From Candidatus Methylomirabilis lanthanidiphila (GTDB taxonomy: Bacteria > Methylomirabilota > Methylomirabilia > Methylomirabilales > Methylomirabilaceae): 55,471 nt of DNA. Position numbers and translations under genes: made by a program. The stretch spans positions 1 to 55,471 of the forward strand of contig CABIKM010000038.1 in NCBI GenBank assembly GCA_902196205.1. Direction: 5' to 3'. A model generated the notes under the pieces. That model ran no database searches, was not told the DNA's origin, and saw only the letters and a list, made by a program, of their open reading frames with translations. This document shows, piece by piece, positions 959-6,283 of this stretch. Positions within the stretch are counted from its first letter, which is position 1; every line of letters begins with the position of its first letter.

Positions 959-995
959 CCCAATTTTATTTTTTCTCTGTATAGGAATTGCGGTG

Positions 996-1337
996 ATGAA
1001 AAGGATCGCGTTACGAATCGTTGGCAGTGCTGCGGTCATTGTGGCCCTGAGCGCCTCAATGAAATGGATAGGGTGGCGGGAGGCAAGGGCGGACGCCAGG
1101 GAAGAAGTCGGATCGAGAGTAGTTACACACAAGGTAGACCTGAACACAGCGTCAGTGCGAGAGCTCGAACGGCTCCCAGGGATGGCACCTGAGGTTGTTG
1201 AGCGAGTGCGGCGAAATCGGCCGTATCGTACACTCGACGAATTGATTGCCCGAAAGGTATTAGGTCGGAAGGAGTTCGCGAGAATCAAAGAGCGAATTCG
1301 AGTGAGTTCGCCTCAAGCGAAGAACAGCGCGCCGTGA
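996..1337 (+). CDS. Small ComEA-like helix-hairpin-helix protein between 23S and 5S
   Basis: A 113-residue protein. Residues 5-22 are a hydrophobic signal or anchor segment with a possible cleavage site after AREARA. Residues 47-102 match the ComEA/PF12836 helix-hairpin-helix pattern: VDLNTAS at 47-53, LPGM at 60-63, then RPYRTLDEL. In ComEA this domain binds double-stranded DNA in the periplasm. The ATG at 996 is chosen because AGGAA lies 8 bases upstream; GTG at 993 is in frame, and a longer frame opens at 954 inside the 23S end. The gene fills the 23S-5S spacer on the rRNA strand, so it is probably carried on the rRNA transcript. The domain is clear. A role in DNA uptake is inference, and no other competence gene is in the window. 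Confidence 0.8.
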   Translation: MKRIALRIVGSAAVIVALSASMKWIGWREARADAREEVGSRVVTHKVDLNTASVRELERLPGMAPEVVERVRRNRPYRTLDELIARKVLGRKEFARIKERIRVSSPQAKNSAP

Positions 1338-1385
1338 CCGACGGACAGCGGCCAATGAAGAGAGACCTGGAAAGCTTGTAAGCAT

Positions 1386-1510: not shown

Positions 1511-1551
1511 GAAAAGCCCACACGGAAGGCGCGTGCGGGCTTTTCATTTTT
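1511..1551 (+). terminator. Intrinsic terminator of the rRNA operon
   Basis: GAAAAGCCC at 1511-1519 pairs with GGGCTTTTC at 1537-1545, with an inner CAC/GTG extension, and is followed by a T-rich tail. It sits directly after 5S and closes the rRNA transcription unit. Confidence 0.9.
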
Positions 1552-1573: not shown

Positions 1574-3274
1574 ATGAGCAGGCGAGGGAATTATGCAGAA
1601 CGGGCGCGTGCGAGGGGCGAGACGCCGAGTATGGTAACAGGCAGCGCGATGTTATGGAGTCAGAAGAGGGGGAAACGACCGACGGTAGCGGGTTTAGCCA
1701 CGGCATTGTGGGGAGTACTGCTTGCGGTGGCGCTCAGCTCCTCGGCGGCGGCTCCCGTGCGGGTGTATCTGGAGAAGAAGGAGCTGACGTTGAGTACTGT
1801 GATGATCCGTGGCGCCGAATATCTGTCGCTGAAGAGCCTCGGCAGGGCTGTAGGAAGTTCGGCAACTGGAGCGCCGACTCGGGGAGGCGCTAGGATGGCG
1901 CTTGGGGACTCCACGATGGTGCTGACCATGGGCTCTCCGGAAGTGCGAATCGGAAACAGCATCGTCGTGCTTTCCGAAACACCTCGACAGCTAAGGGAAA
2001 GCATGGTCGTACCGCTGGAACTGCTGCCGATTGCGCTCGGCGCGCGATATGGCGAAGACCACGTGAACTGGAATCCAGAAACCCGAGTCGCTAGAGTTGC
2101 CGAACGGGCTTACTCGCTGCGCCTCTTCCGATTTCGCACGTATCCTGATCATACCCGAGTAGTCCTGGAAGGAACGAGGCCTCATAATTTCGTGCTCAGG
2201 GAGGATGGCGCGTCTGGACGGGTGATGCTGGAGGTGAAGGGGGGAATCGTGAACCCCTCAATGCGAACAAGTCAGGTCTCGGATGGCTTAGTGGCTGCGA
2301 TCGAAATTCGTCAACGTGGTAACGATAGCCAGGTGACCATCCAGGGGACAGGGCGTAGTTTACGGAGTAAGGTGTTTGCTTTGGAAGGGCCAGACCGGAT
2401 TGTGGTCGATCTGTTTCCCTCCGAAAGGCAAGAGCGTCATTCGCTTCCGCCCGATACCGTCTCGAAGACGCCACGTGGACGAGCCGCGCAGTCAGGACTA
2501 GCGGGTCGAGCCATCGAGGCGACCGAGCTGGCTGGTGCGCTGTCGGTAGAGCCGCTTGTCAAGACGGTTGTGATCGATCCTGGCCATGGCGGAAGAGATG
2601 CTGGCGCCATCGGCCAGTCAGGTGCGAAGGAGAAAGATATTGTTCTGGATATCGGTCTTCGGTTGCAGCGACTGATCAGGGAGCAGCTTGGGATGAAGGT
2701 CATCATGACTCGTACTAAGGATATCTTTGTCCCACTCGAGAACCGGACGATGATTGCCAATCGACACCACGCTGATTTTTTTATCAGCTTGCATGTCAAT
2801 GCAGCCCCAGGAAGTCGTGCAGTCGGGTTCGAGACCTATTTCTTGAGCCGTGAACCATCCGACCGCGGCGCAAAGGCGTCTGCCGTCAGAGAGAATACGG
2901 TTCTCAATCTTGAGGGAGTCGGTCAGGACGCACAGCGGGGCTTGAAGACTGTCCTGTGGGATTTGGCTCAAACGTTTTATGTAAAGGAATCAAGTGAGCT
3001 GGCGGAGTTACTCTTGAACGAGCTCGGGCAGAGCCTGAAGATGGAGAATCGTGGAATCAAGTCGGCTCCATTTTTTGTGCTGATCGGAGCGGCGATGCCG
3101 TCTGTCCTTGTAGAGGTGGCTTTTATCACGAACCCGGATGAAGAACAAAAACTTGAACAAGAGGCGTATCGACAACAGATCGCTGAAGCTTTGTTGGCCG
3201 GCATCGGCAAGTTCAGGACAAGATATGAAAAACGGGTCGGTTCGACGTCTGCGCCCATGCCGGTCGTCAGATGA
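1574..3274 (+). CDS. N-acetylmuramoyl-L-alanine amidase with AMIN domain
   Basis: A zinc-dependent cell-wall amidase that cleaves the bond between N-acetylmuramate and L-alanine in the periplasm. Order: signal segment (about residues 38-60), a region like the copper-amine-oxidase N-terminal or stalk domain (about 63-175), an AMIN peptidoglycan-targeting domain (about 190-285), and a C-terminal Amidase_3 domain (about 330-555). The zinc ligands and general base are present: H338 in DPGHGG, E353, H407 in SLHVNA, and E514 in VEVAFI. Starts at 1574, 1631 and 1649 are all possible; none has a strong ribosome binding site, and 1631 or 1649 would put the signal peptide closer to the N-terminus. The stop overlaps the next gene as ATGA. 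AmiC-like by domain order. Confidence 0.92.
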   Translation: MSRRGNYAERARARGETPSMVTGSAMLWSQKRGKRPTVAGLATALWGVLLAVALSSSAAAPVRVYLEKKELTLSTVMIRGAEYLSLKSLGRAVGSSATGAPTRGGARMALGDSTMVLTMGSPEVRIGNSIVVLSETPRQLRESMVVPLELLPIALGARYGEDHVNWNPETRVARVAERAYSLRLFRFRTYPDHTRVVLEGTRPHNFVLREDGASGRVMLEVKGGIVNPSMRTSQVSDGLVAAIEIRQRGNDSQVTIQGTGRSLRSKVFALEGPDRIVVDLFPSERQERHSLPPDTVSKTPRGRAAQSGLAGRAIEATELAGALSVEPLVKTVVIDPGHGGRDAGAIGQSGAKEKDIVLDIGLRLQRLIREQLGMKVIMTRTKDIFVPLENRTMIANRHHADFFISLHVNAAPGSRAVGFETYFLSREPSDRGAKASAVRENTVLNLEGVGQDAQRGLKTVLWDLAQTFYVKESSELAELLLNELGQSLKMENRGIKSAPFFVLIGAAMPSVLVEVAFITNPDEEQKLEQEAYRQQIAEALLAGIGKFRTRYEKRVGSTSAPMPVVR

Positions 3275-3831
3275 GAACGGCGGCAATCTTCATCGCCTTA
3301 GTGGTCGTCATCGTCGGCGCGATCGCGCTGTGGGGTACAGGATCGGTGACGGGGAACAGGCCTGTCGCCCAGCGCACCGCCGTAAAGACCGAGAAGCCGG
3401 TATTTGAAGCTGGAACGAAGCGCGTCACGCTCTTCTTCTTGGGTCGCGGCGACTATTCCTTTCGTGAAGAGCACAGAGAGATAGAACGTGGGGCGACGAC
3501 GGCAGAGGAGGCGAAGCGGACCTTGGCCGAGCTGGTAAGAGGACCTAACAGCGCCGACCTCGCGCCGACGGTTCCTCGTGAGGCGAAGCTGTATAATCTC
3601 TTTATTGATTCGTCCGGGACTGCGTACGTCAATTTCAATCAGGGGTTACGGGACGGTTTGTCGAGAGGCGGTCAAGAGGAACTCTACACGGTATTCTCCA
3701 TTGTGAATACGCTCGCGTCGAACTTCGTTCAGATTGCGCGTGTACAGATTCTTGTGGAGGGAGCGGAGATTTCAACACTGGCGGGACATGTTGATACGCG
3801 CATGGCCTTACAACCGCAGTACGTGTTTTGA
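3271..3831 (+). CDS. GerMN-domain exported protein
   Basis: A 186-residue protein with an N-terminal membrane or signal segment (about residues 4-22) and a GerMN domain (about 50-175; LVRGP, then the [13 protein letters not shown] strand). The domain was named from the Bacillus germination protein GerM. In diderms, proteins of this type commonly sit beside amidases, rph and rdgB, as here. The biochemical role is not established. It is translationally coupled to the amidase through a 4-base overlap, which suggests a joint envelope role. Confidence 0.85.
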
Positions 3832-3866
3832 GGCGGCTGGCGGGCGATCGCGCGAAAGGAGAACCT

Positions 3867-4604
3867 GTGAGAAGTGACGGTCGAAGGATAGACGAGATCA
3901 GGCCGGTGAAGGTGGACCGCGGCTGTCTCAAGCATGCCGAGGGATCGCTGCTAATTGAGATCGGTGAGACCAGGGTCTTGTGTACAGCCACGGTGGAGGA
4001 GAAGGTTCCGCTATTCCTGCGGGCTACCGGCCAGGGGTGGGTCACTGCAGAGTACGGCATGCTCCCCCGCGCGACGAAGACGAGGACCCCTCGGGAATCG
4101 GTAACCGGAAGGGCGAGCGGCCGGACCTTTGAGATCCAGCGCCTCATTGGCCGATCGTTGCGAGCCGTGATCGACCTGACACGATTGGGTGAGCGCACGG
4201 TGCTGATCGATTGTGACGTGATTCAGGCTGACGGCGGGACTCGAACCACCGCCATCACAGGAGCCTTTGTGGCAATGGCCGATGCGCTGTCTCGACTTCA
4301 AGAGAACGACCAACTTCATGGACCACTGCTTAAGGATTTCGTAGCCGGCGTGAGCGTTGGGCATGTAAACGGGGAATTATTGCTGGACCTTAACTACGCC
4401 GAGGACTCCATGGCCGAGGTCGATATGAATATCGTCATGACAGGCTCCGGGAAATTTGTCGAGGTGCAGGGGACCGCCGAGGAGGTTCCCTTCAACAAGG
4501 TAGAGTTAGACCAGATGCTCGACCTGGCGACGCGAGGGATCGATCAGCTCGTGGGCCTTCAGCGTCAACTGCTGGGAGCTGAGATTAATGGTCTGAAGAT
4601 GTAA
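3867..4604 (+). CDS. rph: Ribonuclease PH
   Basis: A phosphorolytic 3'-5' exoribonuclease that trims tRNA precursors. The protein of 245 residues begins [14 protein letters not shown], the standard RNase PH N-terminus. Downstream are [17 protein letters not shown] and the [18 protein letters not shown] phosphate-site region. The GTG at 3867 is chosen because AAAGGAGA lies 5 bases upstream and because the family starts here; a TTG at 3828 would add 13 unlikely residues. It lies just before a tRNA cluster, but that position is probably incidental because rph-rdgB is a widespread pair. Confidence 0.96.
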
Positions 4605-4640
4605 AGATGCAGCTTGACATCAGGGGACAAGGTTTCTAGA

Positions 4641-5273
4641 ATGCAGTTGATCGTGGCAACAGCCAATGCGGGAAAATTTCAAGAAATTGTGACCATCCTC
4701 AGCGACCTGAGGATTTCTTTTTTATCGCTCGCCTCACTTCATGGGTATAACCCGCCGGTTGAGGCTGGTAGGTCGTACGCTGAGAACGCTGCGGCTAAGG
4801 CGAAGGCCGTTGCAGCGTTCAGCGGCGACTGGGCTCTTGCGGACGATTCGGGTCTTGAGGTGGACGCCCTCGGGGGACAGCCCGGGATATACTCAAACCG
4901 TTACCTCGGCCCTACAGCGACGGATCGAGAGCGCAATCAGCGGATCCTCGAGTTGCTGGATGGGATACCGCTCTCACAGCGGGGAGCTCGTTTTCAGTGT
5001 GCGGTGGCCGTGGCTGGCCCTGGAGGAGAATTGACCCTTTCTCATGGGAGCTGCGACGGGATCATCTCCGAGGTGCCTAGCGGTCATAGCGGGTTCGGCT
5101 ACGATTCCATCTTCACCGTTCCAGGATTCGACGCGACGATGGCGTCGCTTCCGACGGACGTTAAGAATCGAATCAGTCATCGTGCGCGGGCGCTTGAAAA
5201 TGTCAAACCGTTGTTGCGACGCCTCGCGCTTGTTGCGGTGTGTAACTACTCAGGTGGACAGACCAAAGGCTGA
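4641..5273 (+). CDS. rdgB: RdgB/HAM1 non-canonical purine NTP pyrophosphatase
   Basis: Hydrolyses dITP, ITP and XTP to monophosphates, keeping damaged purines out of DNA and RNA. A 210-residue protein starting IVATANAGKFQEI, with the ADDSGLEVDALGG catalytic segment and the SGFGYDSIFTVPG substrate segment. The ATG at 4641 fits the family start and has AAGG 8 bases upstream; an earlier TTG at 4614 is unlikely. The last residues (GGQTKG) run into an iterated-word hairpin at 5267-5335, so the natural C-terminus may have been extended slightly. Confidence 0.95.
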   Translation: MQLIVATANAGKFQEIVTILSDLRISFLSLASLHGYNPPVEAGRSYAENAAAKAKAVAAFSGDWALADDSGLEVDALGGQPGIYSNRYLGPTATDRERNQRILELLDGIPLSQRGARFQCAVAVAGPGGELTLSHGSCDGIISEVPSGHSGFGYDSIFTVPGFDATMASLPTDVKNRISHRARALENVKPLLRRLALVAVCNYSGGQTKG

Positions 5274-5369: not shown

Positions 5370-5446
<77 letters not shown>

Positions 5447-5450
5447 CAAG

Positions 5451-5566
5451 ATAGGGTATAGGGTATAGGGTTCACAATCTGACAGTTCGTCGATTGGATT
5501 GCAGGTTGAGGAAGGGATTGCATTTTCTAACCCAACCCCCCAAACCCTAAACCCTGTGATCTATAC
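5451..5566. repeat. Iterated CCCTATA/TAGGGT words in the Pro-Arg spacer
   Basis: Tandem ATAGGGT units at 5451-5472 followed by TTCACA face C-rich AACCCTAAACCCTGTGATC and CTATAC on the other side of the spacer. The two sides can pair imperfectly. Related words recur at 44150 and 51290. Confidence 0.6.
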
Positions 5567-5570
5567 TTGT

Positions 5571-5648
5571 GCGCCTGTAGCTCAGCCCGGACAGAGCAAC
5601 GGCCTCCGGAGCCGTGTGTCGCCCGTTCAAATCGGGCCAGGCGCGCCA
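5571..5648 (+). tRNA. tRNA-Arg(CCG)
   Basis: Acceptor GCGCCTG/CAGGCGC, anticodon stem ACGGC/GCCGT with loop CTCCGGA (anticodon CCG), T-stem GCCCG/CGGGC and encoded CCA. Confidence 0.95.
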
Positions 5649-5655
5649 GAGAATA

Positions 5656-5678
5656 GCTGATAGCGTCCAGCTATCAGC
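5656..5678. repeat. Short perfect hairpin between tRNA-Arg(CCG) and tRNA-His
   Basis: GCTGATAGC at 5656-5664 pairs perfectly with GCTATCAGC at 5670-5678 around a 5-base loop. It uses the same word family (CTATCAGC) as the following spacers. Confidence 0.65.
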
Positions 5679-5686
5679 GGCAGCAT

Positions 5687-5762
5687 GGTGAGCGTAGCTC
5701 AATGGCAGAGCACTGGACTGTGGCTCCAGGGGTTGAGGGTTCGAGTCCCTTCGTTCACCCCA
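5687..5762 (+). tRNA. tRNA-His(GTG)
   Basis: Acceptor GTGAGCG/CGTTCAC, anticodon stem CTGGA/TCCAG with loop CTGTGGC (anticodon GTG) and encoded CCA. The extra 5' G (position -1) at 5687 faces C73 at 5759, as expected for tRNA-His. Confidence 0.95.
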
Positions 5763-5773
5763 TTAGTACAGCT

Positions 5774-5860
5774 ATCAGCCATCAGCGGTCAGCGTTCAGG
5801 AAAGACCAGGCGATACGCGTTGCGTACCGCGCTGAAAGCTGATTGCTGACCGCTGTTTTT
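5774..5860. repeat. Iterated-word hairpin with T tail, His-Arg spacer
   Basis: CAGCGGTCAGCGTTCAG at 5783-5799 pairs with CTGAAAGCTGATTGCTGACC and CGCTG at 5832-5855, followed by TTTTT at 5856-5860. The shape is that of an intrinsic terminator, yet it lies inside the tRNA array. The 27-base stretch at 5774-5800 recurs exactly at 6120-6146. Confidence 0.7.
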
Positions 5861-5862
5861 GT

Positions 5863-5939
<77 letters not shown>

Positions 5940-5947
5940 CGATAAGG

Positions 5948-6026
5948 CAGTGATGAGTGACGAGTGGTCAGTGATCAGTAACAACTTCGTTCCCTTCACT
6001 AATCACTATTCACTGGCCACTGTTTT
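5948..6026. repeat. Iterated-word hairpin with T tail, Arg-Arg spacer
   Basis: Left arm of CAGTGAT/GAGTGAC/AGTGGTC words (5948-5982) can pair with TTCACTAATCACTATTCACT and GGCCACTG (5995-6022), followed by TTTTT. A different word from the neighbouring spacers but the same architecture. Confidence 0.65.
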
Positions 6027-6031
6027 TCCTG

Positions 6032-6108
6032 GCGCCCATAGCTCAGCCGGACAGAGCGGCTGCCTTCTAAGCAGTAGGTCGGGAGTTCGAGTCTCCCTGG
6101 GCGCGCCA
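6032..6108 (+). tRNA. tRNA-Arg(TCT)
   Basis: Acceptor GCGCCCA/TGGGCGC, anticodon stem GCTGC/GCAGT with loop CTTCTAA (anticodon TCT) and encoded CCA. Reads AGA and probably AGG codons. Third arginine tRNA in this array. Confidence 0.95.
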
Positions 6109-6113
6109 CTGTA

Positions 6114-6198
6114 ACAGCCATCAGCCATCAGCGGTCAGCGTTCAGGGCACCTCTGAGACGCTTATCGTGGCTGGCTGATAGCTAATTGCTAATCGCTG
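6114..6198. repeat. Iterated-word hairpin, Arg-Lys spacer
   Basis: CAGCCATCAGCCATCAGCGG words on the left face TGGCTGATAGCTAATTGC and TAATCGCTG at 6168-6198, able to pair imperfectly. Contains the exact second copy (6120-6146) of the 27-base stretch at 5774-5800. Confidence 0.65.
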
Positions 6199-6207
6199 TC
6201 TTGTGTG

Positions 6208-6283
<76 letters not shown>

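Follow-up and report, generated by a model that had tools for sequence, protein, structure and literature searches.

RESULTS

An open reading frame between the 23S and 5S rRNA genes

The window analyzed here is a 55,471-nucleotide stretch (contig CABIKM010000038.1) of the near-complete genome (G000) of Candidatus Methylomirabilis lanthanidiphila, and its forward strand begins within a 23S rRNA gene. The 3′ third of this gene spans positions 1 to 958 (Rfam RF02541, 1085 bits, model positions 1967 to 2925), and the 5S rRNA gene follows on the same strand at 1387 to 1503 (Rfam RF00001, 109.5 bits). With the 23S 3′ end at approximately 958 to 961, these Rfam matches leave a 23S-5S spacer of 428 nt (959 to 1386). 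Eighty percent of the spacer is occupied by an open reading frame (ORF) on the rRNA strand, running from an ATG at 996 to a TGA at 1335 to 1337 and encoding 113 amino acids with a hydrophobic N terminus (residues ∼4 to 20) and a helix-hairpin-helix (HhH) domain (residues 44 to 103). A Shine-Dalgarno-like AGGA (983 to 986, forward strand) lies 9 nt upstream of the ATG, and its GGA is kept among the orthologues; the ribosome binding site (RBS) claimed in a preliminary description of this DNA is therefore present, although it is a weak one. In two related genomes (G008 and G014; loci L003, L007, and L009), the embedded gene starts with TTG rather than ATG and is preceded by AGAGGA. A consensus scan places an intrinsic terminator-like hairpin 3′ of the 5S gene (1524 to 1551, forward strand). 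A terminator-like site was also called at the 23S 3′ end (943 to 959); it is most likely part of the 23S itself, and could reduce read-through into the ORF.

The remainder of the operon is on a second contig (C10), which carries 16S, tRNAIle, tRNAAla, and the 5′ part of 23S, and whose end shares a 33-nt overlap with the start of the window. Because of this overlap, and because three relatives have the entire operon in this order on one contig, we consider the operon to be intact; its 16S gene, spacer tRNA genes, 23S gene, and 5S gene lie on one strand at one locus, as in other linked bacterial rRNA operons. The 16S and 5S genes are each present once in the genome, and the embedded ORF is linked to the sole rrn operon found. 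Downstream are amidase, GerMN, RNase PH, and RdgB genes (window 1574 to 5273), and this order following rrn is common to families f1 to f5; it was not seen adjoining rrn in the three f7 loci examined. Six clustered tRNA genes (Pro, Arg, His, Arg, Arg, and Lys) are at 5370 to 6283 in the window, and are kept behind RdgB in three relatives. In another genome (G021), a second, divergent 5S-like match (L066, contig C61, 7297 to 7404; 67.9 bits) is separated from the main 5S gene by about 1.7 kb.

Conservation and loss of the embedded gene

A check of the 23S-gene-5S order in the same clade, as suggested in the preliminary description, found the gene in the spacer of all 10 genomes of the genus that have a readable spacer (414 to 441 nt). 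These include an assembly cut just inside 23S (G013) and a closed one, consisting of a single contig of 2,752,854 bases (G006); the other genomes of the genus have no 5S match in the assembly or, for G012, an assembly that ends at 5S. Beyond the genus, within the one phylum sampled, the gene is present in one f2 member (G015, 473-nt spacer) and one f5 member (G034, 431-nt spacer), giving a total of 12 genomes. The G034 genome has 10% contamination; we do not regard its gene-bearing contig as a contaminant, because the locus order flanking rrn is the same in families f1 to f5. The gene is absent from the spacers of families f3 and f4 (58 to 67 nt) and f7 (47 to 212 nt). A tree of 23S left the families unresolved, and concatenated neighboring genes group f3 with f4 (support 93/94).

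G028 and G034 belong to one genus. The G028 spacer is 163 nt long and is similar in sequence to the two ends of the G034 gene region, but lacks what lies between them. Both the start region ATGCGACG and an end coding for KKQFAQIRD are still recognizable at this locus (L074, contig C290). We conclude from this resemblance that the G028 spacer is a deletion remnant and that the embedded gene can be lost.

Within the genus, the median dN/dS of the gene is 0.23, with many of the dS values near saturation; for the pair G000 and G013, dS is 0.77 and dN/dS is 0.35. A ratio near 1, which had been named beforehand as evidence against a gene, was thus not found. Substitutions in the genus number 1725, 1370, and 2767 at codon positions 1, 2, and 3, respectively, being highest at the third position, and the HhH part is constrained (pN/pS 0.28, versus 0.72 for the N-terminal part). 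By these measures of substitution, the embedded gene is under purifying selection. Because the ORF has the same spacer position in 10 of 10 readable genomes of the genus, a low dN/dS, and a codon-position bias, we conclude that it is a real gene, far beyond chance expectation. The claim of a same-strand coding gene that nearly fills the spacer is borne out.

The encoded protein is a ComEA-related HhH protein

The protein matches HHH_3 (PF12836) over residues 44 to 102 with 45.2 bits, against a gathering cutoff of 27 (E = 1e-11), placing it in this family. It also passes the Pfam cutoff for PsbU (PF06514; 30.9 bits against 24.5), a weaker match than that to HHH_3, and falls short of the PsbU equivalog NF002708 (33.3 against 85). 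Canonical ComEA was considered as an identity and was ruled out: scores are below the cutoffs of TIGR01259 (29.3 against 152.35) and TIGR00426 (18 against 53.1), a 4-residue loop of the 'YREEHGPF' type is missing (R----PY), and KVLGRKEF replaces the GIG motif of the second hairpin. The domain assignments place the protein as a member of a ComEA/PsbU-like HhH subfamily, so that the 'ComEA-like' label used previously applies to the HhH domain and the relationship to ComEA, but not to canonical ComEA. Canonical ComEA-type genes and ComEC are encoded elsewhere in these genomes.

AlphaFold2 models the HhH domain with a pLDDT of ∼91 and the linker as disordered. The closest structures belong to PsbU proteins and to a ComEA-related protein of Thermus, 2duy (rmsd 1.4 across 56 columns), none of them below an E value of 0.001. 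All 12 orthologues have a hydrophobic N-terminal segment, in agreement with the signal segment proposed earlier, and the HhH part carries a net charge of +5 to +11. The protein is probably exported or membrane-anchored, as predicted from this segment, and judging from its domain, a DNA-binding role is likely. We note that members of the same subfamily occur in the f7 genomes as solitary HhH proteins that look secreted (L016 to L030), with Lys/Ala/Pro-rich linkers and signal peptides recognized by eye; these solitary relatives have no conserved neighbors that point to function.

A predicted pre-23S stalk encloses the gene

The 23S leader on contig C10 contains a boxA-like sequence (GCTCTTTGACAA) 5′ of a segment that is predicted, by duplex and alifold calculations, to pair with positions 951 to 982 of the window (GGCTTGACCCCAATTTT...TCTGTAT, forward strand) as the inner pre-23S stalk. 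Leaders are known for five genomes only and are nearly identical, so the covariation is modest: three pairs are changed on both sides in these five genomes, with 91% of cells paired across the stalk. The inner helix (AUACAGA/UCUGUAU) stops directly 5′ of the AGGA of the RBS, and the inner stalk reaches the RBS in all five.

A second leader segment (AAGCGATCCGGGTCTC) is predicted to pair at −26.8 kcal/mol with a pre-5S motif at 1362 to 1379 (GAGACCTGGAAAGCTTGT, forward strand) that is kept in the genus and would form the 3′ strand of an outer stalk. The outer leader arm (AAGCGAUCCGGGUC) has two competing partners, the pre-5S motif (GACCCGGAAAGCU type) and the start-codon region. For the pre-5S motif, just 1, 2, 5, and 1 of 1000 shuffles pair as well with the arm in G000, G009, G006, and G004, respectively, and partition-function folds give this pairing a mean probability of 0.62 to 0.80. 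Four further genomes whose leader is not known carry the motif, and its pairing with a borrowed consensus leader outperforms no fewer than 98.6% of shuffles. G010 has an altered motif, and its leader arm instead pairs with the start-codon region (0.82), reaching the first codons. For the start-codon part of the pairing, pair counts are no better than those of shuffles and covariation is uninformative. A first stalk model, in which the outer arm paired with codons 3 to 6, was set aside when a scan of the whole spacer gave a better, pre-5S partner in four of the five genomes; we likewise abandoned the idea of a generally buried start codon, as only G010 among the five prefers the start region. 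Low-threshold Rfam matches in the spacer were judged to be chance.

Leader and trailer thus show the conserved complementarity of a pre-23S stalk, and an RNase III gene is present in 14 of 15 genomes of the genus. Within the genus, the ORF is predicted to lie inside this stalk, looped out from the 3′ strand. In the f3 and f4 relatives, which have no gene, the stalk is continuous within the short spacer. The G034 stalk is already closed ahead of the ORF, which is therefore outside it, and enclosure is not required for the gene to exist.

DISCUSSION

Expression of the embedded gene

A plausible model is one for which we infer co-transcription with rRNA, release by processing, translation, and DNA binding, combined with the stalk pairing, export, and fold predicted above. 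A scan of 850 to 1600 for sigma-70-like promoters, the one promoter type covered, returned none, and the gene should therefore be transcribed as part of the single rrn operon, in the order 16S-tRNAIle-tRNAAla-23S-hhh-5S. The rRNA promoters would drive transcription, with antitermination through boxA. The 23S leader and trailer of the precursor would form the stalk, with the ORF looping out of the 3′ strand as a segment of ∼350 nt; cleavage of the stalk by an RNase III-type activity, together with 5S maturation, would then free a short mRNA with its 5′ end just upstream of the RBS. Translation of this mRNA would yield a probable extracytoplasmic DNA-binding protein, in amounts that track ribosome synthesis. 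We lean toward this model as a whole, from co-transcription to an exported HhH protein. Both transcription from the rRNA promoter and excision by rRNA processing had been put forward in the preliminary description: the former is in keeping with the location of the gene and the promoter scan, and the latter with the predicted stalk on either side of the gene, each as a suggested step. A stronger version, which we offer tentatively and think doubtful, is that processing licenses the mRNA, with the RBS region sequestered in the pre-23S stalk until cleavage by RNase III, and the protein made only as fast as 23S matures. A switch could then arise from the two alternative partners of the leader arm, the start region and the pre-5S motif.

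It is possible, if rather unlikely, that the gene is a passive passenger, co-transcribed and translated with no contribution of the stalk to its expression. Pairing would then be kept for 23S processing, and the gene would have had to land where 23S and 5S maturation stays unbroken; the stalk arms in the gene-free f3 and f4 families and the location of the G034 gene outside the stalk are as this predicts. However, with the inner stalk extending to the RBS in five genomes, and pairing extending into the first codons in G010, an effect on initiation is hard to avoid. Expression from the gene's own promoter, located within the spacer or immediately ahead of it (a promoter of non-sigma-70 type, for instance, or one in the T-rich tract), with regulation independent of rRNA, is improbable: although an AT-rich tract (962 to 982) is immediately upstream and a single promoter type was scanned for, no sigma-70-like site was found, and the 23S-to-ATG gap is just 37 nt and mostly taken by the predicted stalk.

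More improbable still is that the protein acts on RNA or the ribosome, in rRNA processing or subunit assembly for example, and is encoded in cis for this reason. Such a role would suit a basic domain encoded in the rrn operon, and HhH domains are capable of binding structured nucleic acids, but the hydrophobic N-terminal segment is conserved in every orthologue, the solitary relatives elsewhere in the phylum look secreted, and sister families whose rRNA operons are normal lack the gene. Finally, a chance ORF, a pseudogene, or an assembly error is refuted by recurrence in 12 genomes, including the single-contig G006, and by purifying selection; the decayed copy in G028 is the one point in its favor, and nothing of the kind was found in the genus of the window.

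Relationship to known systems

To our knowledge, it is very rare for a protein gene to lie within a compact, linked rRNA operon, and a literature search of partial coverage found no earlier description of an HhH gene between 23S and 5S. A gene long kept in this spacer and enclosed by a stalk would make it possible to test directly whether a messenger can be excised from pre-rRNA, and whether its translation depends on rRNA maturation. Production of the protein may be coupled to ribosome making in methane-oxidizing Methylomirabilis and, if the favored model is true, an exported HhH protein would be tied to the growth rate of a methane oxidizer of environmental importance.

By analogy, the link between an HhH protein and rrn appears to be of a kind already known from the ComEA homologue ComE of Neisseria, and what seems new is the 23S-5S position inside a predicted stalk. 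Chen and Gotschlich (2001) reportedly placed the Neisseria comE copies downstream of rRNA operons. Both systems would thus have a small exported HhH protein with a gene linked to rRNA operons, whereas the gene described here is located between 23S and 5S and within the predicted stalk. The two proteins are compared here by description, and the embedded protein is not a canonical ComEA. There are four comE copies in Neisseria (PMC2601033).

With ComEA and ComEA-related proteins (such as PDB 2duy and 8dss), the embedded protein has the HhH fold in common, and two features of canonical ComEA are missing from it: a loop of 4 residues and the second GxG hairpin. PsbU, the 12-kDa extrinsic protein of photosystem II, is similar in fold and by the Pfam cutoff, but not at the equivalog level; as far as we know, photosystem II is not expected in NC10. 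The predicted stalk resembles the bacterial pre-23S stalk cut by RNase III in its leader-trailer complementarity by boxA and in the presence of an RNase III gene, and differs in that its 3′ strand is interrupted by an ORF. In unlinked rRNA operons, other genes lie between the rRNA genes (PMC7761764). Protein-coding sequence separates rRNA genes in both situations, but here the operon is linked and compact, with one gene in a spacer of 414 to 441 nt.
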